Positions 11,804 to 38,319 of a stretch of 64,000 nt of DNA are shown in pieces. Below the pieces are notes generated by a model that saw only the letters and a program-made list of their open reading frames with translations, ran no database searches and was not told where the DNA came from. The stretch's first letter is position 1, and every line of letters begins with the position of its first letter. A program made the translations under genes and the position numbers. Origin of the DNA: Phytophthora quininea (taxonomy: Eukaryota > Oomycota > Peronosporomycetes > Peronosporales > Peronosporaceae); NCBI GenBank assembly GCA_011947345.1, contig JAAVTG010000525.1, forward strand, positions 186,001 through 250,000, given 5' to 3'.

Positions 11804-12247
11804 GGTAATCTCTCGCTCGGTCTTGGGGCTGGTGGATCGTCCGACACGGGAGATTGGGGAATGGCAAGACTGAAGCGTGTCGAATTGGTAGTCAACGTGG
11901 GAGTTGCAGAGTTCCGGGACGTCATGAGAGTGTGCGTGTCCGGTGAGAGCGCTTGCTAGTCAAACGGTAGTTTTCTTGGTGGTTACTCGAATACTATAGT
12001 GCTCTCCAAAAATGCGATGAGGAAGTCGCTCAAGCCACTGGACGTATTGGGAAGCTACGGTGTATGTCGCTAGCGCGCAAATTCCTGGCCACTTCTACCT
12101 GGAAGTGCTCGATTTCTTGGTTAGCAATATGGATTTTTCTTTCCGCATCGATTCAATTCAAGTTTGAGGTTAAGCATAAAGCCAACAGATTTTTTCATTT
12201 TTCATTTACGTGTATGAAGTGCTAGTGGTAGTAGGCATCACAATCGA
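11804..12247. other. Spacer between protease genes
   Basis: This 444 bp spacer holds the upstream region of the first protease and the 3' end of the second. The part from about 12120 to 12240 is AT-rich. No coding evidence is seen. Confidence 0.5.
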
Positions 12248-13449
12248 TTAGGCGCAGGCGTTTGCCGGAAGGATGCCGCGCCAGTTCATATCATTGCACA
12301 GCTTGTAGCTGTTGATGGCCGTGTTGGGGCATCCGCCACAGTGGTGGAGAGCAACGACCTTGTTGTCGTTGTACGACAGGATCGGGGAACCGGACGAGCC
12401 TCCTTGGGTGTCCAAGTAGTATGCGACTTGGTCGGACGCACAGCCTCCCATGTTGAGCGACGTGATGGTGCCCCAGCCATTGTCGGTTTTCAATGCAATG
12501 CGCTTGCCCCAACCAGCCGGGTGTTGCGGGGCGTAGATCCGCTCCGACAGGACGGAGCCACTCCACCGAAGCGTAAGGTATCCGTATTGCCACGTCGGAT
12601 TGACCGGCAACTTCACAAGCGCGTAGTCGAGCGTTTGGTCGGCATAGATGAGCTGAGCAGTGGTGGCGACCACATTGCCACGACAACCCCGCGGACTGGC
12701 GCAACTCACACCGCATCTCGAACCTTCCGCCATGAACTCGAACTCGACGTTGTTAGCGTCGGCCTGGGACGAAATGCAGTGGTGGTTGGTGATCATGTGG
12801 CCCTCACTACCGATCAACCAGCCCGTGCAGAAGAAACAGCCCGTCGACTTCTTGATGAGCAGGCGAGCGACCGCGTTCGAAGCCTGGAAAACAGCGGTTT
12901 CCCCATGTAGCACCGGGCTTCTTGACTGTTATCGGCCCCGCATACTTCTTCCTTTGATCCATTGAGTGTCGAGCCTTGAGCTAGGAATTGAAAGCTATCC
13001 ACCGAGAAGCCCAAACACGTTGACGAGTTCACAGCCGACGTGTTGACCCCTTCCGTGAACAGCTCGACAATGACCGCGTTCGTTGAAATAGCCGACGAGT
13101 AGAAGTTGCCGGTCGTCTCGTTGCCACGGTAGGTTAACACGGTCGTGTCCTTGGAAGCAGGATCAGCAGCCCGTAGCTGCACGTAGTCATTGGCAGGGAT
13201 GTTGAAGTCCTTAAAGTGCACCGAGACGAACTCCGCCAACGAGGTGGTCACCAGGTATGCGAATCGAGGCTGCATCGTTGAATTATCCGTGGTTGTTGGG
13301 TACTCCATGTCCCCACCGCACCCGACGCCGAAGTCGAGTTCTTCAACACCAGGAATGGGGTCCAAGTAGGCGTCGCTGGAGTTTGAGGTCGCCTCCGCCA
13401 CTGCGAAAGCTGCTGTGAACGCCACCGCCGAGTGAAACCAACGCGCCAT
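12248..13449 (-). CDS. Secreted Lys-C-like serine protease, tailless paralogue, frame-broken
   Basis: ATG at 13449 (MARWFHSAVAFTAAFAVAEA) gives a signal peptide. The N-terminal domain (ELDFGVGCGGDMEYPTTTDN, RFAYLVTTSLAEFVSVHFKD) is followed by the S1-type protease with MITNHHCISSQ, TLDYALVKLP and DTQGGSSGSPILS, and ends WRGILPANACA with stop at 12248. The frame changes near 12905. Restoring one G in the GGGG run of the minus strand rejoins CYMG to ETAVFQASNAVARLL, which matches the paralogue. The product is about 400 residues. It lies between two paralogues in the same orientation, indicating tandem duplication. Substrate preference for Lys is suggested only by similarity to the lysyl endopeptidase group. 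Confidence 0.88.
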
Positions 13450-13774
13450 GAGCTTGCCGAATTCTTGTAGTTAGAAGTGGTTGCAGCGTTGCCAATTCGC
13501 GAATGACTCGATCCGAGCGATGCCTGCTACCTGGTGAACTAGCACACCCGGTAAAACTCCTCCCACGACCGTTAGGTTCTAGCTCTACCGTTTTCAACAA
13601 CTTCTTCCGACACCGTTATCCAGAATGCCCCTTTGACTCTCGATGCACGTTGCAACATCCTTCTTCTGATCGTTTTACTTCGTAGCAGTAGAGTAGAACG
13701 GAAAGCAAACATCATTAATGCAAATTGATATACGTGTTTGGATGATCATTACCGTCGCTGTAAACGCACGACCA
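13450..13774. other. Spacer between protease genes
   Basis: 325 bp with no coding evidence; presumed promoter of the second protease and 3' flank of the third. Confidence 0.45.
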
Positions 13775-14997
13775 CTAAGCGCAAGCGTTTGCCGGTAGAA
13801 TGCCGCGCCAGTTCATATCGTTGCACACCTTGTAGCTGTTCAGAGCTGTGTTGGGGCAGCCACCGCAGTGGTGGAGAGCAATGACCTTGTTGTCTTTATA
13901 CGACAGGATCGGGGAGCCCGATGATCCACCCTGGGTGTCCAAGTAGTAGGCGACTTGACCGGCCGTACAACCTCCCAAATCCAGCGACATCACAGCTCCC
14001 CAACCATCGTCCGTCTTCATTGCAATGCGCTTGCCCCAGCCTGCAGGGTGCTGCGGGGCGTAAATCCGCTCGGACAGGACGGCGCCACTCCAACGGAAAG
14101 TGAGGTATCCGTACTGCCACGTCGGATTGACCGGCAACTGGACCAGCGCGTAGTCGAGCGTTGCGTCGGCGTAGATGAGCTGGGAAGAGGTCGCTACGAT
14201 GGTGCCAGGACAGCCTCGAGGCTGCTCGCAGTTGACGCCGCAGTTGGCTCCTTCCGCCATGAACTCGAACTCGGTGTTGCTGGCGTCGTCCTGGGACGAA
14301 ATGCAGTGGTGGTTGGTGATCACGTGGCCCTGGCTGCCGATCAACCAACCCGTGCAGAAGAAACAGCCCGTCGACTTTTTAATGAGCAGGCGAGCGACCG
14401 AGTTCGAGGCTTGGAAGGCTCCGACTTCGCTTAAATAGCACCGCGCTTCTTCACTGTTATCGGCCCCGCAGACTTCTTCCTTCGATCCATTGAGTGTCGA
14501 GCCTTGCGCGAGGAACTGGTAGCTGTCCACCGAGAAGCCCAGACACGTCGATGAGTTCACCGCCGAGGTGTTGACCCCTCCGTAAAGAGCTCGATCATGA
14601 CCGCATTCGTCGAAAGCGCCGACGAGTAGAAGTTGCCGGTTGTGTCATTCCCGCAATACTTGAGCACGCGCGTCTCCGTAGAGCTGGGGTCTGCTGGCCG
14701 CAACAAAACGTAGTCGTTGGCGGGCAAGTTGAAGTCCTTGAAGTGCACCGAGACGAACTCGGCCAGCGGGTTGGTCACCAGGTACGCGAACCGAGGCTGC
14801 GTGGTCGAGTTGTCCGTGGTCGTCGGATACGCCATGTCGTTGCCGCATCCGACCCCAAAGGCGACGTCTTCGACGCCGGGGGTGGCGCTGTCATAGACGT
14901 TGGAGTTGTCGCCGTTGCTGCTGTTGGAGGACGTTTGAGCCGTGGAGGATGCCAACAACGCCGCTAAGGGGACGGCCACACGAAGGAAGCGCTGCAT
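13775..14997 (-). CDS. Secreted Lys-C-like serine protease, second tailless paralogue, frame-broken
   Basis: I place the start at ATG 14997 (MQRFLRVAVPLAALLASSTA) because it opens a clean signal peptide; an upstream in-frame start at 15123 would bury it. An S/N-rich spacer leads into the same N-terminal beta domain (VEDVAFGVGCGNDMAYPTTT) and an S1-type protease with VITNHHCISSQ, TLDYALVQLP and DTQGGSSGSPILS, ending WRGILPANACA. The frame breaks at about 14575, where the minus strand has GGAGGGGTC. One more G gives ELFTEGVNTSA exactly as in its neighbour. It is closest to the 12.2-13.4 kb copy, with many identical blocks. Confidence 0.88.
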
Positions 14998-15404: not shown

Positions 15405-16143
15405 TTACTTCTTGGCCGCCTTCTTGGCGGTCTTGGTCACTTTCTTCTTGGTCGTCTTAGCCGTCACCTTTTTGGGGGCGGCCTTCTTCTTGGGGCAGCC
15501 TTCTTCGCTGCAGGCTTCTTGGCCGCGGCCTTCTTAGCCGGAGCAGCCTTCTTGGTCGGTGCCTTCTTAGCTACCGTCTTTTAGCAGCCGCCTTCTTGGT
15601 CGGCGCCTTCTTGACGGTCCGTTTGACCGTCTTGGCCGCAGCCTCCGTCACCTTTGCGCTCTTCTTCTTAGAAGCCGCGGGCTTCTTCAGGTCAGGCGAG
15701 AGCTTGTAGCTGCCCTTGTTCTGGATCAGCTTGCCGGCGTCCACGGCCGTGCGCAGCGCCTTGTTGAGGAAGTGGCTGGCGTAGTTGCTCTTCTGGGCCT
15801 CCACGAGCTTGCCGATGGCCTGGCGGCTCGAGCCGTTGCGCTCCTTGAGCTCCTTGATGGCGTCCACGATCAGGTCGAAGTAGGACGGGCCGGTCTCGCC
15901 GTTAGCAGGTTTGGCCTTGGCCTTGGCCTTCGCGGCGGGCTTGGCGGCGGGTTTAGCGCGCGGCTTGCGGGTCTTGGGAGCCTCCTTCTCCTTGGGCTCG
16001 TCCTTCTTGGCGGCGGCCGCGGTCTTGGCCTTGCGGGCGGCTGGGGAGCGCGTCGGGGCCGGCGCGGCGGCGGCGCTTTCCTCCTTGGCAGGGGTAGGGG
16101 CAGGCACGGCCTCGGCGGCCTTGGCGTCGTCGGCAGGAGCCAT
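15405..16143 (-). CDS. Linker histone H1, frame-broken near the C terminus
   Basis: ATG at 16143 (MAPADDAKAAEAVPAPTPAK). An Ala/Pro/Lys-rich N-terminal tail is followed by the winged-helix H15 domain (residues about 85-155: GPSYFDLIVDAIKELKERNG, ASHFLNKALRTAVDAGKLIQ, NKGSYKLSP) and a Lys/Ala-rich C-terminal tail of AAKK/APKK repeats. Linker histone binds nucleosome entry/exit DNA. The frame stops early at 15571, but the AK-rich tail plainly continues to TAA at 15405-15407 if one A is restored in an AAAA run (about 15583) and one C in a CCCC run (about 15497). This copy keeps its 3' end; a second, truncated copy lies at 19.1-19.6 kb. Confidence 0.9.
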
Positions 16144-16420
16144 TGAAAGCGGGAAGGAGCTAGGAAGCGGGAGCGGTCGGGGCCGTCGAAGTCGAGTTCT
16201 TTTCTGCCATTCAGTTCAAGTGTAAGCTCGCGTTTGAACGAGGTTTTGGAGGGACGTGAACGGGCCAATGAGAGCGGAGCAGATAAGATTCCGCCAATGG
16301 AAGGAGATAAAAGAAGAAATTCCGCTGTAATTGGCGGAAAGTTTTCTCACGGGTACCCGCGGCGGCGGCACGGTGACGAACACAAGCGGTGGACACTTTG
16401 TCAGAGGTGTCCACAGGAGT
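16144..16420 (-). promoter_or_regulatory. Histone H1 upstream region with CCAAT boxes
   Basis: Within about 200 bp upstream of the H1 ATG there are repeated CCAAT elements in either orientation: GGGCCAATGAGAG near 16262, CCGCCAATGGAAG near 16291, and TAATTGGCGG near 16330. Clustered CCAAT boxes are usual in eukaryotic histone promoters. The same block is duplicated at about 19606-19882 with single-base changes. The regulatory role is inferred. Confidence 0.5.
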
Positions 16421-16551
16421 GGACTGCGACACTATCCATTGCGGCGCATGAAGGCCCTGCGAAGGCTGCGAGGATTGAATAGTCGCTAGAAATCCGACAT
16501 CATGGCATCTTACTATTAGGTGGAAACCTGCCCGGCCAAAAGCAATATATG

Positions 16552-17148
16552 TTATAATAATATTATGTTATAACCGTAGGAGATGAGTGTGGTCTGAAGT
16601 GCGATGTTCGCCGCGGCCAAGAGGAAGAATATTTTTGGGGGTGAGTGTTCCGACTGGGAGCCATCACGCACTTGGGAGACGGCATCGCGCTCAGACCTAG
16701 CCTGATCCAACTCCTGTCGGGTCTGCTGAAGCGTGATCAAGGGGGCGTCGTAGAGTAAGCGAAGTTGGGTGAGCTCGTGTGTCAGCCGGGAAGACTCCTG
16801 CTCAGCCGCGCCCGCAACAGCACAGGCAGCAACCAACTGAGTCCCAACGACTCCAGCAGAGTCCGGGGCCGTGGATCTGCCATCCGAGGTCATGAATCTA
16901 GTGCGATCCAAATCCGCTACCGCGGTTGCTTGGGTTAGGAGAGCTTGGTCGCGATCGCGTTCGACCGCATAGATATGGGACTGCAGAAGACGGAGATCCG
17001 CCTCTGCGACGTCCAGAGTTTCTTGGCAGCGGATTCGATCGGCTGTAGCACTTGGGAGGCCTCCTTGCGGCTGAGACGGGCAAGACTGCGGCTGAGACCC
17101 ACTCGAGCGGCGTCCCGACAGCGGATACTGTGGGATCTGCGTCTCCAA
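16552..17148 (-). CDS. Element-borne coiled-coil ORF (copy A)
   Basis: 198-residue ORF beginning METQIPQYPLSGRRSSGSQP. The middle has long charged helices (ETLDVAEADLRLLQSHIYAV, TLQQTRQELDQARSERDAV), a pattern common in retroelement Gag N-terminal regions. It overlaps the start of the plus-strand S/P/G-rich ORF by about 97 bp in opposite orientation. The heptad pattern argues that this strand really codes. A copy at 20014-20610 is predicted to be the same protein. Function unknown; Gag-like is an inference. Confidence 0.45.
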   Translation of the reverse strand: METQIPQYPLSGRRSSGSQPQSCPSQPQGGLPSATADRIRCQETLDVAEADLRLLQSHIYAVERDRDQALLTQATAVADLDRTRFMTSDGRSTAPDSAGVVGTQLVAACAVAGAAEQESSRLTHELTQLRLLYDAPLITLQQTRQELDQARSERDAVSQVRDGSQSEHSPPKIFFLLAAANIALQTTLISYGYNIILL

Positions 17149-18066
17149 CTAGTGGATTTTTCGCCCGGACCTCTGTCGGTCCCGCTCACGAGTCTCTGCC
17201 AGGGGCTCCGGGTGGATTACCACACGGATCTCCTGATTCTGGATCTCCGGGAGATTCGTCTCGCGGTTCGCCTTCTGGATCACCTCTCGGATCTCCTGGC
17301 AGATCACTCCCTGGTCCTTCTGCACCTCCTGTCAACCTCTTCGCTCCATATGAGGAGTTTATCCCGGGTTTCGATCGGCTCCAACAATTCAGTCCAGCCG
17401 AGGTGGATCCGTGAGATTCCGTGTTCCTAAGCCGGATCCAGGTCACCGGCATGATCCCCTCGACTTGGGTTCACCGATTTCCACTGCGGCCGGAATGGAT
17501 CTTTTCGTTGAGACCGACCCGAGCTCCCGCCGTACATGCTCACCAATACTGCGCGGATCTGATCACTGCTAGCAACTTGACGACGCTGTTGGCGACCCGT
17601 CCTTGGGAGGACCAGGAAAATTCCGAGCCACCGCTGACCTTTGATCTGCGCGCACACCGCCATGCGAAAATCAGTCTCGCGGCGGCGTTGGATCTGTATC
17701 TCATCAACGAGGAGCGTGATCGTCAGGCCTACTGGGAGTCGACTCATTATCTCCCCATCTCGAAGGCAATGCGTCAAGCGGATCCGGCACTGGATCGATA
17801 CTACAAGGCACGGAAGAAGATCCCACGCCGGTCCGCGCTGGAGCAAGTTTATCAAGCTGGTGTTAGTGGCGATGCGAGGTGGCTGGTGTGATATAGACGT
17901 CTTGCTGGATCCGTTCTTCCTGCATTTCCCCAGATCCGATGAGAGCGTCACTTGGTACCCTGGTCGTGCAGCGCGGCTGTTGGCTCGCTCAGCGGCTGCC
18001 GTGGGTGCTGTCCGACCACCTGCCCGGGATCTGCCTACGGATCTGCTCGAGGCTCTCGCCGAATGA
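17052..18066 (+). pseudogene. Element-borne plus-strand coding remnant (copy A)
   Basis: Open, coding-like frames: an S/P/G-rich segment to 17414, an in-frame TGA, then a 156-residue stretch to 17891 with amphipathic helices (ISLAAALDLYLINEERDRQA, DPALDRYYKARKKIPRRSAL). After a frame change near 17880 it continues as CDIDVLLDPFFLHFPRSDES to 18066. No family recognised. It reads like a decayed element protein. Copy B has the same ORFs at 20514-21528. Confidence 0.4.
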
Positions 18067-18619
18067 GATGATGTGGATCCGTGGCGTAACTATTACTGTG
18101 ATCTCCTGCTCATCACCCGGCGGGCGATATTGCACGCCTCCTTTCCGCTTCGACGCTACAGCTCGCAATCCGGATCCGCAGGCTCGTCCGGCAGGTAGAT
18201 CTCGGCCACTCTGAGCACCAACCAACCGGTGCCTCCCCAGATCCAGCCTCTCTTCACGTTCGTTCATGTGGATCCGTGGGTGCTGTTCCGCTAGCCACTA
18301 CGCTGCTGGAGTCTGTCATCTCTCGACGGCAGGCAGTTCTCCACCTGATTAATCCACAATCAATTTAAGTCTCCATTTCTCCACATTCATTATACATAGT
18401 TCGGTCTTCACCTCACCGGTCTTCAGGTTGATCATTCCCCTTGCATGGTCAACTTAACTTGGATCCGAAATGTCTTGACTTTAAAGTGGCCTTCTGCCAC
18501 ATACCTTGCGTATGGTGACTGATCACAGCTCGTTTCTCGCTCACGATGGTTACCCTCAAATACTGTGTCCTCCCGGGACCGTTCACAATCGTTGGCACCC
18601 AGCGATCTCCACGGATGAC

Positions 18620-19057
18620 CTACAATTTTTCATGATCTTGCGTTTTCAAGAGCGTAGGTAGCTGGATCGACTCTGCCACGTCAATCCACACGTTTCGATC
18701 CACCCTCAGTTGTACCGTTTTGTCACTATAGAGCTGACGGCACCCAGTTAGCTGGATATTGACCTCGTCGGGCAAACAAACCACTCCGACGGCTAGATCC
18801 ATGCGGATCCCGGCCGGGATCATGAAATCCATACCCAAGATCGCCTCCTGTCCGGCCAGATCACCTACCCAGATGTCGAAGAAATATACCAAATACCCTG
18901 CCAACGTGATCTTGATCCGCGTTCTTCCTTCCGTTCGGTACACATTTTCGCCCATTCCCACACCGTCTTGACTCTGATTCGCGTCGATGTAGCAGCCTAC
19001 CTTACGAGCAAAGGCGGTATCCACAATGGACACCTCGGCGCCACTATCTAGTAGCAC
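18620..19057 (-). pseudogene. Retropepsin (aspartic protease) fragment, copy A
   Basis: The ORF opens with MLLDSGAEVSIVDTAFARKV, the D-S-G-A active-site motif of LTR-retroelement proteases, and has the later hydrophobic ILGMDFMIPAGIRMD segment (I-L-G-x-D-F) typical of the second half of the fold. It would process a Gag-Pol precursor. No reverse transcriptase follows downstream. The upstream Gag part is lost from this copy because the duplication junction lies immediately beside it. Confidence 0.75.
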
Positions 19058-19605
19058 GATCGCCTTTTCATTGTTGATCTTGCCTGTGATCTTAGCTTGT
19101 CAGAACCATTTACCAGGTGCGTGACGTTTCCAATATCCGCGCGACTATTCAGGTCGGGCGAGAGCTTGTAGCTGCCCTTGTTCTGGATCAGCTTGCCGGC
19201 GTCCACGGCCGTGCGCAGCGCCTTGTTGAGGAAGTGGCTGGCGTAGTTGCTCTTCTGGGCCTCCACGAGCTTGCCGATGGCCTGGCGGCTCGAGCCGTTG
19301 CGCTCCTTGAGCTCCGTGATGGCGTCCACGATCAGGTCGAAGTAGGACGGGCCGGTCTCGCCGTTAGCAGGTTTGGCCTTGGCCTTGGCCTTCGCGGCGG
19401 GCTTGGCGGCGGGTTTAGCGCGCGGCTTGCGGGTCTTGGGAGCCTCCTTCTCCTTGGGCTCGTCCTTCTTGGCGGCGGCCGCGGTCTTGGCCTTGCGGGC
19501 GGCTGGGGAGCGCGTCGGGGCCGGCGCGGCGGCAGCGCTTTCCTCCTTGGCAGGGGTAGGGGCAGGCACGGCCTCGGCGGCCTTGGCGTCGTCGGCAGGA
19601 GCCAT
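19048..19605 (-). pseudogene. Truncated histone H1 fused to retroelement sequence
   Basis: ATG at 19605. The first about 155 residues equal the 15.4-16.1 kb H1 (one K-to-T change in the helix, DAITELKERN) and contain the whole H15 domain. The Lys-rich C-terminal tail is replaced by SRADIGNVTHLVNGSDKLRS and 20 more residues read from the retroelement. The promoter block with CCAAT boxes is also duplicated, so it may be transcribed. A linker histone without its basic tail would bind DNA weakly. I call it a pseudogene, though it is an intact 185-residue ORF. Confidence 0.85.
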
Positions 19606-20013
19606 TGAAAGCGGGAAGGAGCTAGGAAGCGGGAGCGGTCGGGGCCGTCGAAGTCGAGTTCTTTTCTGCCATTCAGTTCAAGCGTAAGCTCGCGTTTGAA
19701 CGAGGTTTTGGAGGGACGTGAACGGGCCAATGAGAGCGGAGCAGATAAGATTCCGCCAATGGAAGGAGATAAAAGAAGAAATTCCGCTGTAATTGGCGGG
19801 AAGTTTTCTCACGGGTACCCGCGGCGGCGGCACGGTGACGAACACAAGCGGTGGACACTTTGTCAGAGGTGTCCACAGGAGTGGACTGCGACACTATCCA
19901 TTGCGGCGCATGAAGGCCCTGCGAAGGCTGCGAGGATTGAATAGTCGCTAGAAATCCGACATCATGGCATCTTACTATTAGGTGGAAACCTGCCCGGCCA
20001 AAAGCAATATATG

Positions 20014-20610
20014 TTATAATAATATTATGTTATAACCGTAGGAGATGAGTGTGGTCTGAAGTGCGATGTTCGCCGCGGCCAAGAGGAAGAATATTTTTGG
20101 GGGTGAGTGTTCCGACTGGGAGCCATCACGCACTTGGGAGACGGCATCGCGCTCAGACCTAGCCTGATCCAACTCCTGTCGGGTCTGCTGAAGCGTGATC
20201 AAGGGGGCGTCGTAGAGTAAGCGAAGTTGGGTGAGCTCGTGTGTCAGCCGGGAAGACTCCTGCTCAGCCGCGCCCGCAACAGCACAGGCAGCAACCAACT
20301 GAGTCCCAACGACTCCAGCAGAGTCCGGGGCCGTGGATCTGCCATCCGAGGTCATGAATCTAGTGCGATCCAAATCCGCTACCGCGGTTGCTTGGGTTAG
20401 GAGAGCTTGGTCGCGATCGCGTTCGACCGCATAGATATGGGACTGCAGAAGACGGAGATCCGCCTCTGCGACGTCCAGAGTTTCTTGGCAGCGGATTCGA
20501 TCGGCTGTAGCACTTGGGAGGCCTCCTTGCGGCTGAGACGGGCAAGACTGCGGCTGAGACCCACTCGAGCGGCGTCCCGACAGCGGATACTGTGGGATCT
20601 GCGTCTCCAA
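20014..20610 (-). CDS. Element-borne coiled-coil ORF (copy B)
   Basis: Identical at protein level to the ORF at 16552-17148: 198 residues, charged heptads, possibly Gag-like. Preservation of the frame in both copies reflects the recent duplication and is not evidence of selection. Confidence 0.45.
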   Translation of the reverse strand: METQIPQYPLSGRRSSGSQPQSCPSQPQGGLPSATADRIRCQETLDVAEADLRLLQSHIYAVERDRDQALLTQATAVADLDRTRFMTSDGRSTAPDSAGVVGTQLVAACAVAGAAEQESSRLTHELTQLRLLYDAPLITLQQTRQELDQARSERDAVSQVRDGSQSEHSPPKIFFLLAAANIALQTTLISYGYNIILL

Positions 20611-21832
20611 CTAGTGGATTTTTCGCCCGGACCTCTGTCGGTCCCGCTCACGAGTCTCTGCCAGGGGCTCCGGGTGGATTACCACACGGATCTCCTGATT
20701 CTGGATCTCCGGGAGATTCGTCTCGCGGTTCGCCTTCTGGATCACCTCTCGGATCTCCTGGCAGATCACTCCCTGGTCCTTCTGCACCTCCTGTCAACCT
20801 CTTCGCTCCATATGAGGAGTTTATCCCGGGTTTCGATCGGCTCCAACAATTCAGTCCAGCCGAGGTGGATCCGTGAGATTCCGTGTTCCTAAGCCGGATC
20901 CAGGTCACCGGCATGATCCCCTCGACTTGGGTTCACCGATTTCCACTGCGGCCGGAATGGATCTTTTCGTTGAGACCGACCCGAGCTCCCGCCGTACATG
21001 CTCACCAATACTGCGCGGATCTGATCACTGCTAGCAACTTGACGACGCTGTTGGCGACCCGTCCTTGGGAGGACCAGGAAAATTCCGAGCCACCGCTGAC
21101 CTTTGATCTGCGCGCACACCGCCATGCGAAAATCAGTCTCGCGGCGGCGTTGGATCTGTATCTCATCAACGAGGAGCGTGATCGTCAGGCCTACTGGGAG
21201 TCGACTCATTATCTCCCCATCTCGAAGGCAATGCGTCAAGCGGATCCGGCACTGGATCGATACTACAAGGCACGGAAGAAGATCCCACGCCGGTCCGCGC
21301 TGGAGCAAGTTTATCAAGCTGGTGTTAGTGGCGATGCGAGGTGGCTGGTGTGATATAGACGTCTTGCTGGATCCGTTCTTCCTGCATTTCCCCAGATCCG
21401 ATGAGAGCGTCACTTGGTACCCTGGTCGTGCAGCGCGGCTGTTGGCTCGCTCAGCGGCTGCCGTGGGTGCTGTCCGACCACCTGCCCGGGATCTGCCTAC
21501 GGATCTGCTCGAGGCTCTCGCCGAATGAGATGATGTGGATCCGTGGCGTAACTATTACTGTGATCTCCCTGCTCATCACCCGGCGGGCGATATTGCACGC
21601 CTCCCTTTCCGCTTCGACGCTACAGCTCGCAATCCGGATCCGCAGGCTCGTCCGGCAGGTAGATCTCGGCCACTCTGAGCACCAACCAACCGGTGCCTCC
21701 CCAGATCCAGCCTCTCTTCACGTTCGTTCATGTGGATCCGTGGGTGCTGTTCCGCTAGCCACTACGCTGCTGGAGTCTGTCATCTCTCGACGGCAGGCAG
21801 TTCTCCACCTGATTAATCCACAATCAATTTAA
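20514..21832 (+). pseudogene. Element-borne plus-strand coding remnant (copy B)
   Basis: Matches 17052-18066 with the same in-frame TGA and frame change. Two C runs are one base longer here than in copy A (near 21568 and 21605). That keeps a small overlapping frame open further (to 21832) and shows that one of the copies carries one-base run errors or mutations. Function unknown. Confidence 0.4.
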
Positions 21833-22083
21833 GTCTCCATTTCTCCACATTCATTATACATAGTTCGGTCTTCACCTCACCGGTCTTCAGGTTGATCATT
21901 CCCCTTGCATGGTCAACTTAACTTGGATCCGAAATGTCTTGACTTTAAAGTGGCCTTCTGCCACATACCTTGCGTATGGTGACTGATCACAGCTCGTTTC
22001 TCGCTCACGATGGTTACCCTCAAATACTGTGTCCTCCCGGGACCGTTCACAATCGTTGGCACCCAGCGATCTCCACGGATGAC

Positions 22084-22521
22084 CTACAATTTTTCATGAT
22101 CTTGCGTTTTCAAGAGCGTAGGTAGCTGGATCGACTCTGCCACGTCAATCCACACGTTTCGATCCACCCTCAGTTGTACCGTTTTGTCACTATAGAGCTG
22201 ACGGCACCCAGTTAGCTGGATATTGACCTCGTCGGGCAAACAAACCACTCCGACGGCTAGATCCATGCGGATCCCGGCCGGGATCATGAAATCCATACCC
22301 AAGATCGCCTCCTGTCCGGCCAGATCACCTACCCAGATGTCGAAGAAATATACCAAATACCCTGCCAACGTGATCTTGATCCGCGTTCTTCCTTCCGTTC
22401 GGTACACATTTTCGCCCATTCCCACACCGTCTTGACTCTGATTCGCGTCGATGTAGCAGCCTACCTTACGAGCAAAGGCGGTATCCACAATGGACACCTC
22501 GGCGCCACTATCTAGTAGCAA
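22084..22521 (-). pseudogene. Retropepsin fragment, copy B
   Basis: Same 145-residue ORF as at 18620-19057, with LLDSGAEVSIVD. Here it is still preceded on the minus strand by Gag-like sequence with a zinc knuckle (22973-23197), so this copy preserves the Gag-to-protease order of an LTR element. Confidence 0.75.
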
Positions 22522-22972
22522 GATCGCCTTTTCATTGTTGATCTTGCCTGTGATCTTAGCTTGTCAGAACCATTTACCAGGTGCGTGACGTTTCCAATAT
22601 CCGCGCGACTATCCTGGCAACAGATCCGTAGATCCCGGGTTGGATCCATACGCATTTATGCGTCAGGACCCCGGATCTTCGGGGTAAACTTCCTCATCCC
22701 CGGGAGTAAACCACCGATCCGGAGCGTGCTGCTTCCAGTAGCTCTTCGGTTCGTCTCGATCTAGATCTATTACCATTTGGGCATCCAATCTTGCAATTCG
22801 TCGACAGGGCGGAGACTCGACACAGCAGTAGTACTTCCCATGCGCAGATCACATGTATTATCGCGTGGATCTCGTAGATTACGTCGTGGATCTACCGATT
22901 TCTTGTTCACAAATGCATCGATGCAATACGTAGAGCGCTCGGCTCGTACCAGTTTCCAACCTGGCGAGCGTC

Positions 22973-26853: not shown

Positions 26854-29564
26854 ATGCTTTCCGCCGTCGCATTGGCACTGGGGGCGGCCGCCGTCATTTC
26901 GCCGGTCAATGCTCTCACGGATCTCAAGACCGACTGGGAGGCCTACGTTAGCAAGCTTCCTACTCCCGAGGTCATTGACATGACCCGCGGAGGCGCCATC
27001 GACATGCAAATGGGCCGTGCCAAACACAACTGGACCGAGGACGGATCCGTTGCCGGCGACGTCTACGGATACGGACTCACGAATTCGACCCCAACGACGC
27101 CCGGACCCACCATCAAGGTCGCAAGAGGAGTCCCCATCAACATCACCTGGCACAATGAGCTGGAGGCGCCGCATCTGCTGCAAGAGAGTGTCGAGTACAC
27201 CCTCATGGAGCAGGCTTCGTCCTGCTACCCGTACTGCGGTGTGCCAGTCGTCACCCACATTCATGGTCTCGAATCGCCACCCCGGTATGACGGTCTCCCG
27301 TATCTGTCGATCTACAAGAACCAGTCGCAAGAGATGGTCTACCTCAACAACCAGTCGGCCTCCACCAAGACCTACCACGACCACGCCAACGGCCTGACCC
27401 GTCTCAACGCTTGGGCGGGTCTTCTGGGCGTCTACATCATTGAAGACGCTGAGCTGGACGCGAAGCTCAACCTCGACATCGAGACGGATATCCCGCTCGT
27501 CATCGCCGACAGGCTCATCAGTAACTCCGGCAAGGTCTTGTACTCGGACGACAACTGCAACGCCGGCGCTACGCTGTGGGTGCCCGAGTCGTTCGGCTCT
27601 GTTAACACCGTCAATGGTGTCGTGATGCCCTACGTCGAAGTGCCACCGGCGCAAGTCCGTTTCCGCTTGGCTAACGTAGCCAATGCTCGTCACTACAACT
27701 TCACGGTGCCGTTTGCGGACAAGTGCAAGGTCATCGCCACCGATTCGGGCTACGTCGGGTCGCCGAGCGCACTCGATGAGAACCTTGTGGTGTTCCCATT
27801 CGAGCGTCTCGAGTTCGTGTGCGACTTCAGCGCTGACACCAACGGCACGACGTACGATCTCGAGGACAAGCAAACGTCCGACCAAGCCACTCCGTACGAC
27901 AACCGCGTCATGCAGATTCGTGTTGTGTCGAGTTTGAAGACCGACAGCATGGACGTCAAGGAGATCCCGTCATCTCTGACCCCATACAAGTCGCTCAAGT
28001 CACTGTACGAGGCTGGAGGCAAGGAGCGCACGCTGATTCTGGGAGAGATCGAGGCCTCACTGCTGTGCCCAAGCATGGGCCTGCTGCTCTATCGGTCGCA
28101 CCAGGTCAACGTGTCAGGAATTACGGGCCACCTGCATTGCACCAAGGGCACGGTCGAGAAATGGAACTTCCAGAACCCCACGGATGACCCGCATCCATTC
28201 CATTGGCACTTGGTGAATGCGCAGTGTGGAGAAACCGAGGAGACGATCAACACAAACGAACTCAAGGACGTCGTTGTCATCCCCAACGCCGGTGACCGAA
28301 AGAAGTCTACGATTACACAAGTCTGCTACGTGGCCTGCACTCCAGGTGATTATCTCCTCGAGGGGAATACCCGTGGAGCCAAGGAGTTCAACTTCGACAC
28401 CACCGACCCGTATGTGGCTCACTGCCACATTCTGGAGCACGAGGAGAACTCGATGATGAGTTGGTTCAACGTTATGGATGTAGACGACGGCTATGCAGAT
28501 GACAACGGGATCACCCCGGCACTCAAATCACTAACACTGTGATTTGGACGGCAATGGGCATGAGTGTGCTGGGTGGTCTCGCTACTACGCTATCGGTGTT
28601 GGTGATCTCTATCAAGCGTCTGAATTTCCTGGCGAGTCCGTTGGCGCTGTCGGTGGCGTTCGCTTTATCATCTGGTGTGATGTTATTTATCGGTTTGACC
28701 GACCTCTTCGGCGAAGCGTTAACGTTCTACCGAGCGCACTACACGACGGGTAATGTCGACCCCGAAGCGTACGAGAAGGGTGGCTCTACTTCCACTGGAG
28801 TGTGTGACGACGTGTGCAACGGCAATGCCTACTTGACAACATTGGCCGCGTTCTTCGGCGGCGTGCTGATCATTTTGCTTGTGGAGTTCGTTGTCCACAC
28901 CATCTTCGGGAGGAAAGAGGCTGCCGGGGAGAAGGCTAACGCTATCGGTCGCGCAGACGCCGACATGGAGGAAGGTGACAAGGCAATGTTCGCCTCTCCG
29001 GTCGAGAACAGTCCTACCGGTGTTCACAACGACATTGAAACCCCCGTCGGAGTCGAGTCGTCCAACTTGCTGGAGCCAAACAATGGGGCCAAGGAGGAAT
29101 ACCGTCGTGCCGGTGTCATGACGGGTATCGCCGTTGCCATCCACAACTTCCCCGAGGGGCTTGCGCTCTTCGTGTCGTCGCTGGCCGGACTCAAGTCGGG
29201 TATCGTCCTCTCGATTGGAATCATCATGCACAACTTCCCGGAAGGTGTCGCGGTTGCTGCGCCGGTTTATTACGCTACTGGTAGCAAGTTGGAGGCGTTC
29301 AAATGGACGGCTTTGAGTGGCATCGCTCAGCCACTTGGTGCTGGCATCGGCTGGGCCGCTGTTTCCGGCGGCATGAGTTACGCGCTCGAAGCCTCGCTGT
29401 ATGGTATCGTTGCTGGTATGCTCGTGTGCATCACAGTGAAGGAGCTGTTGCCTGGAGCGTACAAGTTCGACCCGAGTGGCAAGGCCTTCGTGATTTCGTT
29501 CTTCGGCGGCCTGGGTATCATCGCCCTCAGTATCATGGCGCTCAAGTACGCAGGCTCCAGTTAA
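26854..29564 (+). CDS. Multicopper oxidase - ZIP transporter fusion 1, frame-broken at the junction
   Basis: I choose ATG 26854 because it opens a signal peptide (MLSAVALALGAAAVISPVNA). The oxidase half (about 540 residues, CotA/bilirubin-oxidase type) has all four copper motifs: THIHGLESPP, TYHDHANGLTRL, HPFHWHLVNA and the T1/T3 motif HCHILEHEENSMM, plus many N-glycosylation sequons. TGA at 28540 interrupts, and the ZIP half continues in the next frame from 28539 with eight hydrophobic segments, two HNFPEG motifs (TM4 and TM5, ZupT-like) and a Cys pair in the TM2-TM3 loop (CDDVCNGNAY). Restoring one base near 28538 gives a junction of the same length as the intact fusion on the minus strand. 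Predicted extracellular oxidase plus divalent-metal importer in one chain of about 900 residues. The metal is not deducible. Confidence 0.87.
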
Positions 29565-29931
29565 ATCCAACTCGGTCTTTGTGAATAAGTTGTCGGCCCA
29601 ATACATAACACGAATTGCCATTCATCCGTTTCTAGCATCCCAACTACCGAAAACGGCAAACCTTCGGCTGTCCCCAGTAGCTGAAGTTTCAAGCATCACT
29701 ACGACGTCAGATTGGTCTAAGGCACGCGCTACACGTTATCACAGCAACGGATGGCAGCGGAAGTGAACCGCAACGGATGCAATATCAAATGCTAAGCCCC
29801 TCCACTGATGGTCGTCGAAACTGCTTGGTGCTAGCAGTTTCGACCAGCTATGAGGTAGACTTCGGACTTGGAGGGGTTCATTCCGTCTTTTCGTTCTTCA
29901 CCACACTACGTGTATTCAAGTGCAGACGGCC
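29565..29931. other. Spacer between MCO-ZIP 1 and 2
   Basis: About 370 bp containing the 3' flank of gene 1 and the promoter of gene 2, with a pyrimidine-rich stretch near 29885-29905 just upstream of the ATG. No coding evidence. Confidence 0.5.
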
Positions 29932-32646
29932 ATGCGTGTATCAGTTGCGGCTGCAGCTGTGGGGTTAAGCCTTGCAGTGGTGTTAGACCCGACCAATGCT
30001 CTCACGGATCTCAAGACCGACTGGAAGGCCTACGTTAGCAAGCTTCCCATTCCAGAAGTCATCGACATGACCCGCGGAGGCGCCATCGACATGCAAATGG
30101 GCCGTGCCAAACACAACTGGACCGAGGACGGATCCGTTGCCGGCGACGTCTACGGATACGGACTCACGAATTCGACCCCGTGACGCCTGGACCCACCATC
30201 AAAGTGTCCAAGGGAGTCCCCATCAATATCACCTGGTACAACGAACTAGAGTCACCGCACTTGTTTCAAGAAAGCGTCGAACTCACATTGACGAAGCAAG
30301 CATCGTCCTGCTACCCGTACTGCGGTGTGCCAGTCGTCACCCATATTCATGGTCTCGAATCTCCACCCCGGTATGACGGTCTCCCGTATCTGTCGATCTA
30401 CAAGAACCAGTCGCAAGAGATGGTCTACCTCAACAACCAGTCGGCCTCCACCAAGACCTACCACGACCACGCCAACGGCCTGACGCGGCTCAACGCTTGG
30501 GCGGGTCTTGTCGGCTTGTACGTGATCGAAGACACTGAACTGGACGCGAAGCTCAACCTCGACATCGAGACGGATATCCCGCTCGTCGTCGCCGATAAAC
30601 TTGTGAGCAATTCGGGCAAGCTGATGTACTCGGACGACAACTGCAATGAAGGCGCTACGCTGTGGGTGCCCGAGTCGTTCGGTACGGTCAACACTGTGAA
30701 CGGCGTGGTGATGCCCTACGTCGAAGTGCCACCGGCGCAAGTCCGTTTCCGCTTGGCCAACATAGCCAATGCTCGCCACTACAACTTCACGGTGCCGTTC
30801 GCAAGCAAATGTAAGGTCATCGCAACTGATTCAGGCTACGTGGGGGCGCCGAGTGCACTCGATGAGAACCTCGTGATGTTCCCATTCGAGCGCGTCGAAT
30901 TCGTGTGCGACTTCAGCAGCGATGCAAACGGCACGACGTACGAACTCATGGACAAGCAGACGTCGTCGCAGTCGACCATCTACGACGAGCGGGTGATGCA
31001 GTTCCGCGTTCTTTCCAGCTTGAAAACCTCTTCGATGACCAACCGTGCTATTCCGACTACGCTTACGCCGTACAAATCCCTGAAGTCACTGTACGAGGCT
31101 GGAGGCAAGGAGCGCACGTTGATTCTGGGTGAGATTGAAGCTTCTCTCCACTGTCCGAGCATGGGATTGCTGTTGTATCGATCGCACCAGGTCAACGTGT
31201 CGGGAATTACGGGCCACCTGCATTGCACCAAGGGCACGGTCGAGAAGTGGAACTTCCAGAACCCCACGGATGACCCGCATCCGTTCCATTGGCACGTGAT
31301 CAACGCGCAGTGTGGAGAAACTGAGGAGACGATCAACACAAACGAACTCAAGGACGTCGTTGTCATCCCCAACGCCGGTGACCGAAAGAAGTCTACGATT
31401 ACACAAGTCTGCTACGTGGCCTGCACTCCAGGTGATTATCTCCTCGAGGGGAATACCCGTGGAGCCAAGGAGTTCAACTTCGACACCACCGACCCGTATG
31501 TGGCCCACTGCCACATTCTGGAGCACGAGGAGAACTCGATGATGAGTTGGTTCAACGTTATGGATGTAGACGACGGCTATGCAGATGACAACGGGATCAC
31601 CCCGGCACTCAAATCACTAACACTGTGATTGGACGGCAATGGGCATGAGTGTGCTGGGTGGTCTCGCTACTACGCTATCGGTGTTGGTGATCTCTATCAA
31701 GCGTCTGAATTTCCTGGCGAGTCCGTTGGCGCTGTCGGTGGCGTTCGCTTTGTCGTCTGGTGTGATGTTGTTCATTGGTATGACCGATCTCTTCGGCGAA
31801 GCGCTGACGTTCTACCGAGCGCACTACACGACGGGTAGTGTCGACCCCGAGGCTTACGAGAAAGGTGGGTCGGCGGCTACCGGAGTGTGCAATAACACGT
31901 GCAACGGCAACGCATACCTCACAACCGTGGCGGCCTTCTTCGGCGGCGTGCTGATCATTCTCTTGGTCGAGTTCTTGGTACACGGCATTTTCAACAAGAA
32001 CAAGAAGAAGAAAACGCCACCGTCCGAATTCTCGGACATGAAGATGGAGGAAGGCGACGAGCACGGGATTGCTTCTCCGGCCGTCGACAGTCCGTGTAAT
32101 GACCATCCTCGAGAACTGGAGAGCCCAACAACTGCCGAAGAAGCCAATTCGCTGACACCAGCTCCGAAAGTCAAGGAAGAATATCATCGAGCAGGAGTCA
32201 TGACAGGTGTCGCCGTTGCCATCCACAACTTCCCCGAGGGGCTTGCGCTCTTTGTGTCGTCGCTGGCCGGACTCAAGTCGGGTATCGTCCTATCAATTGG
32301 AATCATCATGCACAACTTCCCGGAAGGTGTCGCGGTTGCTGCACCGGTCTATTATGCTACCGGTAGCAAGTTGGAGGCGTTCAAATGGACGGCTTTGAGT
32401 GGCATCGCTCAGCCACTTGGTGCTGGTATCGGTTGGGCTGCCATCTCTGGTGGTATGAGCTACGCACTCCAAGCTTCACTATATGGCGTCGTTGCTGGTA
32501 TGCTCGTGTGTATCACCGTGAAGGAGCTCATTCCTGGTGCCTACAAGTTCGATCCACGAGGGAAGGTGTTCGTGATTGCCTTCCTGATCGGGCTCGCGAT
32601 CATGGCTTTCAGTATTATGGCCTTGAAATACGCCGGGTCAAGTTGA
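29932..32646 (+). CDS. Multicopper oxidase - ZIP transporter fusion 2, frame-broken
   Basis: ATG 29932 opens MRVSVAAAAVGLSLAVVLDP, a signal peptide. Copper motifs match copy 1 (THIHGLESPP, TYHDHANGLTRL, HPFHWHVINA, HCHILEHEENSMM). A break at about 30178 (STP then TPGPT) fits one lost base. At the oxidase-ZIP junction (31620-31640) this copy has the same stop as copy 1 and is one base shorter still (GATTGG versus GATTTGG), together equal to two lost bases. The ZIP half has the HNFPEG pair and the loop Cys pair CNNTCNGNAY. Its cytoplasmic loop (31985-32190, KKKKTPPSEFSDMKMEEGDE) is quite different from copy 1, although the flanking TM segments are nearly identical. Tandem with copy 1, converging with copy 3. 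Confidence 0.87.
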
Positions 32647-32747
32647 TGCGAGACCTTCATCGTACACTAATCAAGCGATAGATTTCATTAAGAATCGATC
32701 AAACACATAAGCAATCTCCTCACTTTCATGCCATCCACGGCTCTGTA

Positions 32748-35521
32748 TTAACTGGAGCCGGCGTAGTTGAGAGCCACCAGACTCAGCGCGATGATAGCGA
32801 TGCCGATAAAGAAGGACGGCACGAAAAGCTTGCCGTTGGGGTCGAACTTGTAGGCACCGGGCAGTAGTTCCTTGGCGGTGATACACACGAGCATACCAGC
32901 GACCACAGCGTACAGTGTAGCCTCCAGTGCGTAGCTCATGCCACCAGAAACAGCGGCCCAACCGATGCCAGCACCGAGCACTTGCGCGAAGCCGCTGATG
33001 ATCGTCCATTTGAACGCCTCCAACTTGCTGCCAGTCGCGTAGTACACAGGAGCAGCCACAGCAACACCCTCGGGGAAGTTGTGCAGGATAATACCGACGG
33101 ACAGCACGATACCCGTACGGAGACCCGCGAGCGAGGACACAAACAGTGCCAGACCTTCAGGGAAGTTGTGGATGGCGATGGCGATACCCGTCAGAACACC
33201 AGCACGACGGTATTCCTCCTTGACGCGGCTTTCTTCCTTGAGAAGCCCCGACGACTCCTCCGTGGCAGGGCTCGCCAGTTCCTGATGGGCTGCATTCGCC
33301 GCCACCGGAGTACCTGGAACGGGTGAAGCAATGTGCACAACACTGGCCTTCTCACCGCCATCGTCCGCCATCAGAGCCTTCTCGCCGTCTGCTTGCTCAA
33401 GATCGGCCTGTGCAGCAGCAGCGGCTGCAGCCTTGTCCTTGCGCTCGAAGACAGAGTGCACTAGCCACTCTACCAACAAAATGATGGCCATACCCACGAA
33501 AAACACCCCGTGGCAGCCATGTACGTGTTGCCGTTGCACGTGTTGTCGCATGTACCGGTGGAGGTAGTGCTGCCACCGTGCTCGTACGCTTCGGGATCAC
33601 TAGTACCAGGAGTGAACGCGGCACGGTAGTAGGTCAACGCCTCCGCGTACAAGTCGGCGAAGGCGATGAAGATCATGACACCGGCGGACAACGCAAAGGC
33701 GATCGACAGCGACCGCGGGTCGGCAAGGAACTTCAAGCGCTCCACCGAGATCACTAGCACCGACAAAGTGGTAGCGATACCGCCCAACACACTCATGCCC
33801 ATAGCCGTCGCAATGACCTCGTTCGTAATGACCGTTCCTGCCGTGATACCGTCGTCGTCGGCGTATCCGTCGTCCGTGTCCATGACCTTGAACCAGCTCA
33901 TCATCGAGTTCTCCTCGTGCTCCAGGATGTGGCAATGAGCAACGTAGGGCTCCGTGGTGTCGAAGCCGTAGTCCTTGGCTCCACGGGTGCTGTTAGCGAT
34001 GAGGTACTCGTCGGGAGTGCAAGCAACATAGCAGACTTGGGTGATGGTGTCGGTGGCGCGATCGCCAGCGTTGGGGATCTTGGCGACGTCCTTGAGGTGG
34101 TTCGTGTCGATCGTTTCTTCGGTATCACCGCACTGCGCGTTGACCAAGTGCCAGTGGAACGGATGCGGGTCGTCCGTGGGGTTCTGGAAGTTCCACTTCT
34201 CGACCGTGCCCTTGGTGCAGTGCAGACTGCTGGTGATGGTCGACATGTTGATCTGCTGCGACCGGTACATGATCATGTCGTAGAGCGGGCACTGCAGAGT
34301 GGTGTCCATCTCGCCCAGGATGACGGTACGCTCCTTGCCGCCGGCTTCGTACAGCGACTTGAGCGACTTGTACGTGATGAGAGTGGACGGAATCTCGCGG
34401 TACTCCATGGTGTCTGTCTTCAAGCTCTCAACGACGCGGATCTGCATCATGCGTCCGTCGTAAGCCGTCGGTTGGTCGGCGGTCTCATTGTCCTCCAGGT
34501 CGTAAGTCGTGCCGTTGGTGTCGTTGGTGAAGTCGCACACAAACTCGATGCGCTCGAACGGGAACAGCACGAGGTAGTCTTCGAACGACTCTGGGTTCTG
34601 CACGTAGCCCGAGTCGGTGGCGATGATCTGGCATTTGTCCTGGAACGGAACCGTGATGTTGTAGTGGCGCGCGTTGGCGACGTTGACCATACGGAAGCGC
34701 ACCTGGGCAGGAGGCACATTAACGTACGGCATCACGACGCCGTTGACGAGGTTGACGTTGCCGAAGGACTCGGGCACCCACTGGGTCGACCCGGCGTTGC
34801 AGTTGTCGTCCGAGTAGAGGATGTCGCCCGTGGTGTTGATCAGTCGGTCGGTCAAGATGAGCGGGATGTCGGTCTCGATGTCGAGGTTGAGCGAGGCGTC
34901 CAAGTCGGCGTCTTCGATGATGTAGGCACCCATGAGACCAGCCCACGTGTTGAGGCGGGTGAGGCCGTTGGCGTGGTCGTGGTAGATCTTGGTGGACGCG
35001 GACTGGTTGTTGTAGTAGTGGAACTCCTGCGACTGGTTCTTGTAGATGGATCGGTACGGCAGGCCGTCGTACTCGGGCGGGGACTCGAGTCCGTGCACGT
35101 GGGTGACCACCGGCACGCCGCAGTACGGGTAGCACTTGGATTCGATGTTGTTGAGCGAGTCTTCGACCGAGTCCTGCAGCAGGTGCGGCTGCGACAGCTC
35201 GTTGTACCAGGTGATGGAGATCGGCACGCCCTTGGTGACCTTGAGAGTCGGGCCGGGCATGGTCGGGGTCGAGTTGGTGAGCGCGTAGCCGTAGATGTCG
35301 CCGGAGATGGATCCGTCCTCGGTCCAATTGTGCGAGGCGCGCCCCATTTGCATGCTGATGGCGCCGCCGTTGGTCAGGTCGATGACCTCCGGAATGGGCA
35401 GCTCGCTTTCGTAGGCCTTCCAGTCGGTTTTGAGGTTCTTGAGCGCTTGTGTTGGGGTGAAGACGCCCGTGGCGATGAAGGTCACGGCCGCAGCCGACAG
35501 AGCCGCTCCCGTCGTGCGCAT
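32748..35521 (-). CDS. Multicopper oxidase - ZIP transporter fusion 3 (in-frame junction)
   Basis: ATG 35521 opens MRTTGAALSAAAVTFIATGV. The oxidase part has THVHGLESPP, IYHDHANGLTRL, HPFHWHLVNA and HCHILEHEENSMM. The reading frame passes without interruption from the oxidase (SMMSWFKVMDTDDGYADDDG) into ZIP TM1-TM2 (TAMGMSVLGGIATTLSVLVI), which shows that the two domains are one gene. The frame breaks only within TM3, near 33508, where adding one G to a GGGG run on the minus strand gives TGVFFVGMAI. The remainder holds an Ala-rich cytoplasmic loop and both HNFPEG motifs. It is the most divergent of the three copies. Its 3' end is about 100 bp from that of copy 2. Confidence 0.9.

Positions 35522-38319
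<2,798 letters not shown>

Follow-up and report, generated by a model that had tools for sequence, protein, structure and literature searches.

Three tandem genes of Phytophthora quininea each encode a signal peptide, a four-motif multicopper oxidase (MCO) and a ZIP metal-transporter domain. It is near certain that this oxidase-ZIP fusion is real and that its architecture is single-chain. Both domains have already been named in database entries, and the fused design is undescribed in the open-access literature searched, in agreement with the initial annotation of the locus, which knew of no single-chain example. Two well-studied protein families are joined here in one conserved protein, in a lineage whose members include major pathogens of plants and animals, and the design, kept across oomycetes (water moulds), may tie the uptake of a metal to its oxidation.

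Gene structure and reading frames

The window analysed is a stretch of 64,000 nucleotides, and the initial annotation had placed a cluster of three oxidase-ZIP genes at 26854-35521. All three are found there, as follows from reading frames and Pfam matches:

26854-29564, plus strand: copy 1, whole gene
26854-28542, plus strand: copy 1 signal peptide and MCO; first Met at 26854, open frame to 28542; Cu-oxidase_3 8.6e-10, Cu-oxidase_2 6.3e-12
28503-29564, plus strand: copy 1 ZIP half, in a frame different from that of the oxidase, overlap 28503-28542; Zip 3.6e-32
29932-32646, plus strand: copy 2, whole gene
29932-30183, plus strand: copy 2 signal peptide and N-terminal segment of the oxidase, as far as a frame change near 30183
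30184-31628, plus strand: copy 2 remaining oxidase; open frame 30039-31628; Cu-oxidase_3 3.5e-10, Cu-oxidase_2 9.6e-11
31621-32646, plus strand: copy 2 ZIP half; eight TM helices in an AlphaFold2 model, pLDDT 83
35521-32748, minus strand: copy 3, whole gene
33470-35521, minus strand: copy 3 signal peptide, complete oxidase, linker and start of the ZIP (TM1-TM2) in a single frame; ORF 33470-35683
32748-33596, minus strand: copy 3 remaining ZIP (TM3-TM8), overlapping the upstream frame at 33470-33596; unbroken on contig C67 (L009:1646-4579)

Pfam Cu-oxidase_3, Cu-oxidase_2 and Zip are above cut-off in every window copy. For Zip (cut-off 35.1 bits) the scores are 112 bits in copy 1, 117 in copy 2, 95 in the partial copy 3 of the window and 103 in copy 3 of contig C67, which carries a second copy of the locus with 97.3% identity over 11,015 aligned columns. 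None of the three window copies is a single open frame. The frame changes at the oxidase-ZIP junction in copies 1 and 2, additionally near 30183 in copy 2, and in the TM2-TM3 region in copy 3; the minus-strand copy had been described as running uninterrupted from the oxidase into TM1-TM2, and ORF 33470-35683 does so. On C67, copy 3 is one unbroken frame of 978 codons. An assembly artefact joining two genes is ruled out because of this single open frame and because most database relatives, which come from many sources including metagenomes, are fused as well. An intron at the junction is unsupported; the frames overlap there and no short intron was seen on inspection by eye.

Conservation of the fusion in oomycetes

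MCO and Zip domains occur together in 76 of 101 database relatives (a count by eye of the listed domains), and fused proteins are present in ten named oomycete genera. The search of other proteomes with the joined protein, which the initial annotation had proposed, thus recovers the same domain pair, and the case that it had set against its own claim, with the two domains always in separate genes, is the opposite of what relatives have, mostly one protein. A chance origin of the fusion is excluded by this conservation, together with dN/dS values of 0.09-0.22 for frame parts in 11 out of 12 pairings; the remaining one, of the copy 1 ZIP between contigs, was left out because the wrong frame had been matched. 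Trees unite the fused oxidases in a single clade and the ZIP halves that were sampled on a single branch. Oxidase-only forms lie within the same clade, namely P0080-P0082, which have long Ser/Thr-rich tails, and the Aphanomyces forms. Some genera having the fusion include animal pathogens, and therefore the fusion is not tied to plant infection. A word search of the main text of a Saprolegnia plasma-membrane proteomics paper found neither SPRG_19877 nor SPRG_11908 named.

The idea of oxidase and ZIP as neighbouring genes in bacteria was rejected after two scans. The first gave 0 loci, and in the second no frame of at least 60 aa matched the ZIP HMM at E 0.01 or better in the 80 top-ranking stretches out of 531 confirmed (lengths 3.2 to 11.6 kb), with an HMM that finds the ZIPs in four of our own loci, two of them with close relatives of its training rows, and that had no bacterial ZIP control. 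A ZIP behind a large N-terminal enzyme domain is also found in the metagenomic protein P0101, which has an M28 peptidase where the oomycete fusion has the oxidase and which retains the TM6 Glu (read by eye).

The oxidase half

Each of the three copies has the full set of four copper motifs, as had been annotated, and two further motifs carry acidic residues:

HIHG and HDHA copper motifs: copy 1 27256-27387, plus; copy 2 30342-30473, plus; copy 3 35101-34970, minus
HPFHWH and HCHILEHEENSMM copper motifs: copy 1 28174-28458, plus; copy 2 31260-31544, plus; copy 3 34183-33899, minus
WVPESFG, with the Glu aligned with LPR1 acidic motif 1: copy 1 27577-27597, plus; copy 2 30663-30683, plus; copy 3 34760-34780, minus
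NPTDDPHP, with the Asp of LPR1 acidic motif 3: copy 1 28174-28197, plus; copy 2 31260-31283, plus; copy 3 34160-34183, minus

The copper ligands of the four motifs are kept in every row having a residue (62 or 63 of 63). The closest solved structure by sequence is CotA (1gsk, 2e-46), and CotA entries are the top fold matches. The initial annotation of a CotA-like oxidase therefore holds for the fold, but calling the protein a plain laccase of the CotA type would be wrong, since LPR1-like acids occupy two positions that have no acid in the Bacillus subtilis CotA (spore coat protein A). CotA itself is soluble, a protein of the spore coat. Of the three acidic residues on which LPR1 ferroxidases rely, as defined for Arabidopsis LPR1, two are present (PMC9168544, the main text of which does not contain the word oomycete). 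E246, aligned with LPR1 E269 of motif 1, is E in 63/63, with the strict consensus of this motif in 1/63 and the relaxed form W.[PS]E[SA][FY]G in 60/63. D446, aligned with LPR1 D462, is D or E in 62/62, and motif 3, NXTX[DEG]XHP, is found in 61/63. Linker motif 2 with D370 is matched by 0/63 fused proteins and by 2 of 13 bacterial relatives, and a conserved Y-D/E with other spacing lies in the same linker in 63/63. The oomycete protein thus shares with LPR1-type ferroxidases a CotA-like MCO and the acids aligned to E269 and D462, but leaves linker motif 2 unmatched and adds a transporter domain. Judged by these residues, the oxidase is of the CotA/LPR1 branch and its acidic site resembles that of a ferroxidase, with Fe(II) as the likely substrate.

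Oxidase-only and bacterial relatives retain both acids to the same degree, so that these are uninformative on the fusion itself. Among 68 oxidase frames in the loci of the bacterial scan (best 80 of 531), 48 have both acids, 19 the motif 3 acid without a pattern match to motif 1, and one neither; one pattern of the scan demanded the motif 3 acid.

The ZIP half and its altered metal site

The oxidase is followed by a short acidic linker and a ZIP with several features of its own:

DDGYADD, acidic linker from oxidase to ZIP: copy 1 28483-28503, plus; copy 2 31569-31589, plus; copy 3 33854-33874, minus
CxxxC in the TM2-TM3 loop: copy 1 28803-28817, plus; copy 2 31888-31902, plus; copy 3 33536-33550, minus
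ZIP motifs, HNFPEG in TM4 and the TM5 motif: copy 1 29142-29255, plus; copy 2 32224-32337, plus; copy 3 33170-33057, minus
SGIAQPLG in TM6, with Gln replacing the M2-site Glu: copy 1 29316-29339, plus; copy 2 32398-32421, plus; copy 3 32973-32996, minus

The AlphaFold2 model of the copy 2 ZIP half predicts eight TM helices in the BbZIP fold. The M1-site motifs HNxPEG (TM4) and (H/Q)(N/D)xPEG (TM5) are present, with H781, N782, E785, H810, N811 and E814 in 63/63, and the NCBIfam model for ZupT scores 184, below its cut-off of 252. The M2-site Glu in TM6 (BbZIP E240) is Q in 71 and L in one of the 72 fused rows with a residue, and E in 109 of 110 standalone rows. Fused ZIPs have further gained the acidic linker, outer-loop acids and two cysteines, and are changed at many columns against standalone relatives, most of which lack the CxxxC. 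Compared with ZupT and BbZIP, therefore, the eight helices, HNxPEG in TM4 and the BbZIP fold are shared, but M2 Glu is Gln and outer-loop acids, two cysteines and an N-terminal oxidase are added; the eight-helix, ZupT-like ZIP of the initial annotation stands, except that its metal site is altered. The proposed placement of the oxidase at an extracellular N terminus also fits the features, which are those expected of a non-cytosolic oxidase joined to an N-out ZIP. Because the M2 glutamate changed once in the sampled tree, on the fused lineage, the fusion provides a natural experiment on how ZIPs select metals. M2 is auxiliary in BbZIP, and the M2 site of ZupT has, according to PMC11952358, been reported to prefer Fe2+.

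Possible functions of the fusion

Fungal reductive iron uptake couples a multicopper ferroxidase to a membrane importer, in yeast as two proteins, Fet3 and Ftr1, and FTR1 carries REXXE. We tentatively favour, at somewhat less than even confidence, a similar ferroxidase-importer in one chain, with the ZIP in the place of Ftr1. The protein would have a signal peptide, an extracellular or lumenal oxidase, the short acidic linker and a ZupT-like importer; Fe(II) would be oxidised at the outer mouth of the ZIP, and the product handed along conserved carboxylates, in the linker and in the loop from TM2 to TM3, into the ZIP, where the change of Glu to Gln would have retuned the transport site. With the oxidase feeding the ZIP, one chain would thus do what Fet3-Ftr1 does in two. 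The fuller version, a copper-dependent iron uptake of oomycetes in which freshly oxidised iron passes over an acidic bridge into a ZIP remodelled for it, is rather doubtful; if true, this ZIP would have no precedent known to us in receiving its metal from an attached oxidase, and it might be the first Fe(III) carrier in the family. A full-length model has a pTM of 0.59, and therefore the relative placement of the domains is too uncertain to read. FTR1 permease (PF03239) had 0 matches in this genome (G000) in a single exon-wise six-frame search, with matches in 4 of 14 genomes as positive control. The favoured reading would explain, in a form open to testing, how ferroxidase activity and uptake could be coupled in an oomycete in which no FTR1 is detected. 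Against it, however, ZIPs are known for carrying divalent metals and we know of none that carries Fe(III), an FTR1-like REXXE is rejected as a feature of the ZIP half (1/63), the LPR1 motifs 1 (strict) and 2 are nearly or entirely missing, both acids are no less kept in relatives lacking the ZIP, a ZIP that has lost the M2 Glu could just as well transport less iron, and NRAMP genes and other ZIPs of G000 could import iron.

ZIPs are divalent-metal carriers, which suits a redox selectivity filter, where the oxidase would clear Fe(II) at the mouth and the ZIP would import Zn, or Mn, as a redox-inert divalent metal while letting little iron through. The oxidase evidence is identical for this reading, and the fused ZIP lacks the Glu of a site reported to prefer Fe2+ in ZupT; that its replacement removed an iron-preferring site is, like the filter as a whole, unlikely though worth weighing. 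We know of no precedent, and a filter has no need for the fixed short linker or for the acids and cysteines of the outer loop, which are largely specific to fused forms. It is less probable still that the substrate at the mouth is Cu(I), Mn(II) or a phenolic, in a detoxification or laccase role, with import of Cu, Mn or Zn: the CotA fold and the annotation of some bacterial relatives as "spore coat protein A, manganese oxidase" speak for it, but the conserved E246 and D446 speak against it. Least probable is a tether for location only, with a membrane-anchored oxidase and an ordinary ZIP acting independently; the oxidase-only forms in the clade agree with this, but the ZIP half is altered at many columns in fused forms, and these are retained in ten genera.

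A distinct matter, compatible with any of these readings, is the state of copies 1 and 2, which may be broken at the junction and give only a secreted oxidase, or be pseudogenes, leaving copy 3 as the sole working fusion. Their junction frame change is found on both contigs, C514 and C67. This is improbable, however, in view of dN/dS between contigs of 0.11 and 0.10 for the oxidase halves of copies 1 and 2 and of 0.09 for the ZIP of copy 2, where 18 changes are synonymous and 5 non-synonymous. The window also has just 1 C/G run of at least 6 where 6.5 would be expected, as with run-length miscalls, a modest depletion scored with no control genome. Between the ZIPs of copies 1 and 2, dN/dS is 0.22.

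A cluster of oxidase–ZIP genes and its second copy

Each of the three genes listed below carries the Pfam domains Cu-oxidase_3, Cu-oxidase_2 and Zip together with all four copper motifs, which bears out the three-gene cluster of multicopper oxidase (MCO) fused to ZIP importer claimed in the initial annotation. Their N termini resemble signal peptides, as judged by eye. The window spans G000:C514:186001-250000 of the genome assembly (G000; 87 Mb, 993 contigs), which contains the same cluster in reverse orientation on contig C67, with 97.3% identity to that in the window, and this is probably the other haplotype retained in the assembly.

Oxidase–ZIP genes and the second cluster copy
26854-29564, plus strand, copy 1
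29932-32646, plus strand, copy 2
35521-32748, minus strand, copy 3
G000:C67:6500-22400, inverted orientation, second copy of the cluster (loci L009 and L016)

On C67, copy 3 reads through 978 codons without interruption (924 aa counted from the first Met), with the three domains present. A further family member, L015, lies on the same contig as the window but outside it; its first frame (760 codons) covers the oxidase together with what look by eye to be the initial ZIP helices, and its second frame the remainder. Copies 1 and 2 (26854-32646) share, by eye, long near-identical tracts amid more diverged stretches, for example at the oxidase end/ZIP start, a pattern that looks like gene conversion.

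Frame changes and selection

At the oxidase–ZIP junction, the window versions of copies 1 and 2 change frame; copy 2 has another change near 30183, and copy 3 changes frame after TM2. Since the junction change of copies 1 and 2 is common to both contigs, random error is disfavored as its cause; it may be a miscall common to both contigs or a genuine frameshift. The window has one C/G run of at least 6, where an order-2 chain predicts 6.5, and this shortage hints modestly at run-length miscalls. For copy 1 compared with copy 2, dN/dS is 0.14 in the oxidase and 0.22 in the ZIP. Between the contigs, where the comparison covers both oxidase halves and the copy 2 ZIP, the copy 1 ZIP row (wrong frame) being excluded, it is 0.11 for the copy 1 oxidase, 0.10 for the copy 2 oxidase and 0.09 for the copy 2 ZIP. 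Judging by these ratios, both halves of copies 1 and 2 are under strong selection.

Conservation and origin of the fusion

The 924-aa protein was used as the query for a search of relatives, in which 7995 candidates were scored and 101 matches obtained, the best from P. pseudosyringae (91% identity), so that its proteins place the assembly with Phytophthora. Judged by their listed Pfam domains, 76 of the 101 matches are fused, 20 are oxidase-only and five have Zip without an oxidase, a peptidase being present in one of these five, a ratio biased toward fusions because the length rule (0.55-1.75 x query) hides short standalone proteins. Named matches place fusions in Phytophthora, Nothophytophthora, Globisporangium, Pythium, Lagenidium, Albugo, Aphanomyces, Achlya, Saprolegnia and Thraustotheca; P. 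pseudosyringae has two, whose listed contigs are of equal length. A second, alignment-based search gave 136 matches, and among the 120 listed, all organism-named fusions are from oomycetes.

The database proteins P0080, P0081 and P0082, the latter two from Phytophthora, have oxidases of the fused clade and a long Ser/Thr-rich tail in place of the ZIP. P0101 is a metagenome ZIP joined to an M28 peptidase, another enzyme–ZIP fusion. On contig C704 of the assembly, a 593-codon frame (L010:3522-5300) has a ZIP domain only from residue 320 on; for the 300 residues at its N terminus, no Pfam match was obtained at E 0.001.

The oxidase-half tree was built by a quick method from 120 of 122 rows, two short ones being left out. 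All 72 fused rows fall in one clade of 88 rows (SH-aLRT 97), which also contains 16 oxidase-only rows; the other 20 oxidase-only rows and 12 bacterial rows lie outside. The fused label requires six changes on this tree, so losses or truncated gene models are frequent, and a single gain is a reading that goes beyond the change count. In the ZIP-half tree, which samples 36 of the 73 fused rows and 62 of the 110 standalone ones, the fused rows form one side of a branch (support 100). At M2, a metal-site position of TM6, the state changes between Q and E once on this tree. We read the two trees as pointing to one fusion event, which may have taken place in an oomycete ancestor.

Among the matches and passages listed from an open-access library, none was found to describe an MCO–ZIP fusion. 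A catalogue of oomycete domain combinations by Seidl and others from 2011 may list the pair. The pair is already in the database protein names of some relatives, whose source name reads ‘FtsP/CotA-like multicopper oxidase with cupredoxin domain/zinc transporter ZupT’.

Oxidase half and topology

CotA laccases are the nearest solved structures to the oxidase half (2e-46). According to PMC9168544, LPR1 ferroxidase requires the acidic triad E269-D370-D462, which CotA lacks; the paper also gives three motifs. Among 63 aligned proteins of the 76 fused, the position aligned with E269 is E in 63/63 and that aligned with D462 is D in 60/62 and E in 2/62. As strict strings, LPR1 motifs 1 and 3 occur in 1/63 and 61/63, respectively, and motif 2 in 0/63; the motif 2 linker has a conserved Y-D/E pair with a spacing different from that of LPR1. 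The fused oxidase thus follows the pattern of LPR1 but is by consensus not a strict member. In a wider set, E246 (aligned with E269) is kept in 72/72 fused, 35/37 oxidase-only and 13/13 bacterial rows, and D446 (aligned with D462) is D in 69/71 fused (E in 2/71), 34/37 oxidase-only and 13/13 bacterial rows. Since oxidase-only and bacterial rows keep these acids, they are a trait of the oxidase family at large and not of the fusion.

A simple hydropathy test gave a hydrophobic N terminus for 66 of the 74 rows. N-glycosylation sequons average 7.6 in the oxidase (~530 residues) versus 0.25 in a segment of 115 residues assigned to the TM3-TM4 loop, or ~1.4 versus ~0.2 per 100 residues. Both features fit an oxidase that would be non-cytosolic and a ZIP with its N terminus out; the membrane may be the plasma membrane or an internal one.

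Possible mechanism

The fused protein may, in the reading that we favor, be a tethered ferroxidase–importer functionally parallel to Fet3-Ftr1, in which the oxidase would oxidize iron and hand it over in this form to the attached ZIP. Such a hand-over is favored by the acidic bridge and by the failure to match FTR1 in the assembly. The main rival, which we regard as rather unlikely, is a redox filter that would shield a zinc or manganese importer from Fe(II); the change at M2 fits this filter no worse than it fits the hand-over. Other metal genes in the assembly include NRAMP (nine exon matches) and NAD_binding_6 (43 exon matches), which is of ferric-reductase type; NADPH oxidases belong to this family too. 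ZIP matches number 52, counting haplotype copies and the oxidase–ZIP family; many are other ZIPs.

Elsewhere in the window

At 15686-19148 and 19148-22612, a unit of ~3.46 kb is duplicated in tandem, with 99.8% identity between the two copies. The stretch is probably retroelement-derived, because a gag-type aspartyl protease frame lies within it. Two Trypsin_2 peptidase frames stand near one another at 10706-14644 on the minus strand, and at 1356-5400 on the plus strand a Laminin_G_3 frame is followed by an 821-codon leucine-rich-repeat frame.
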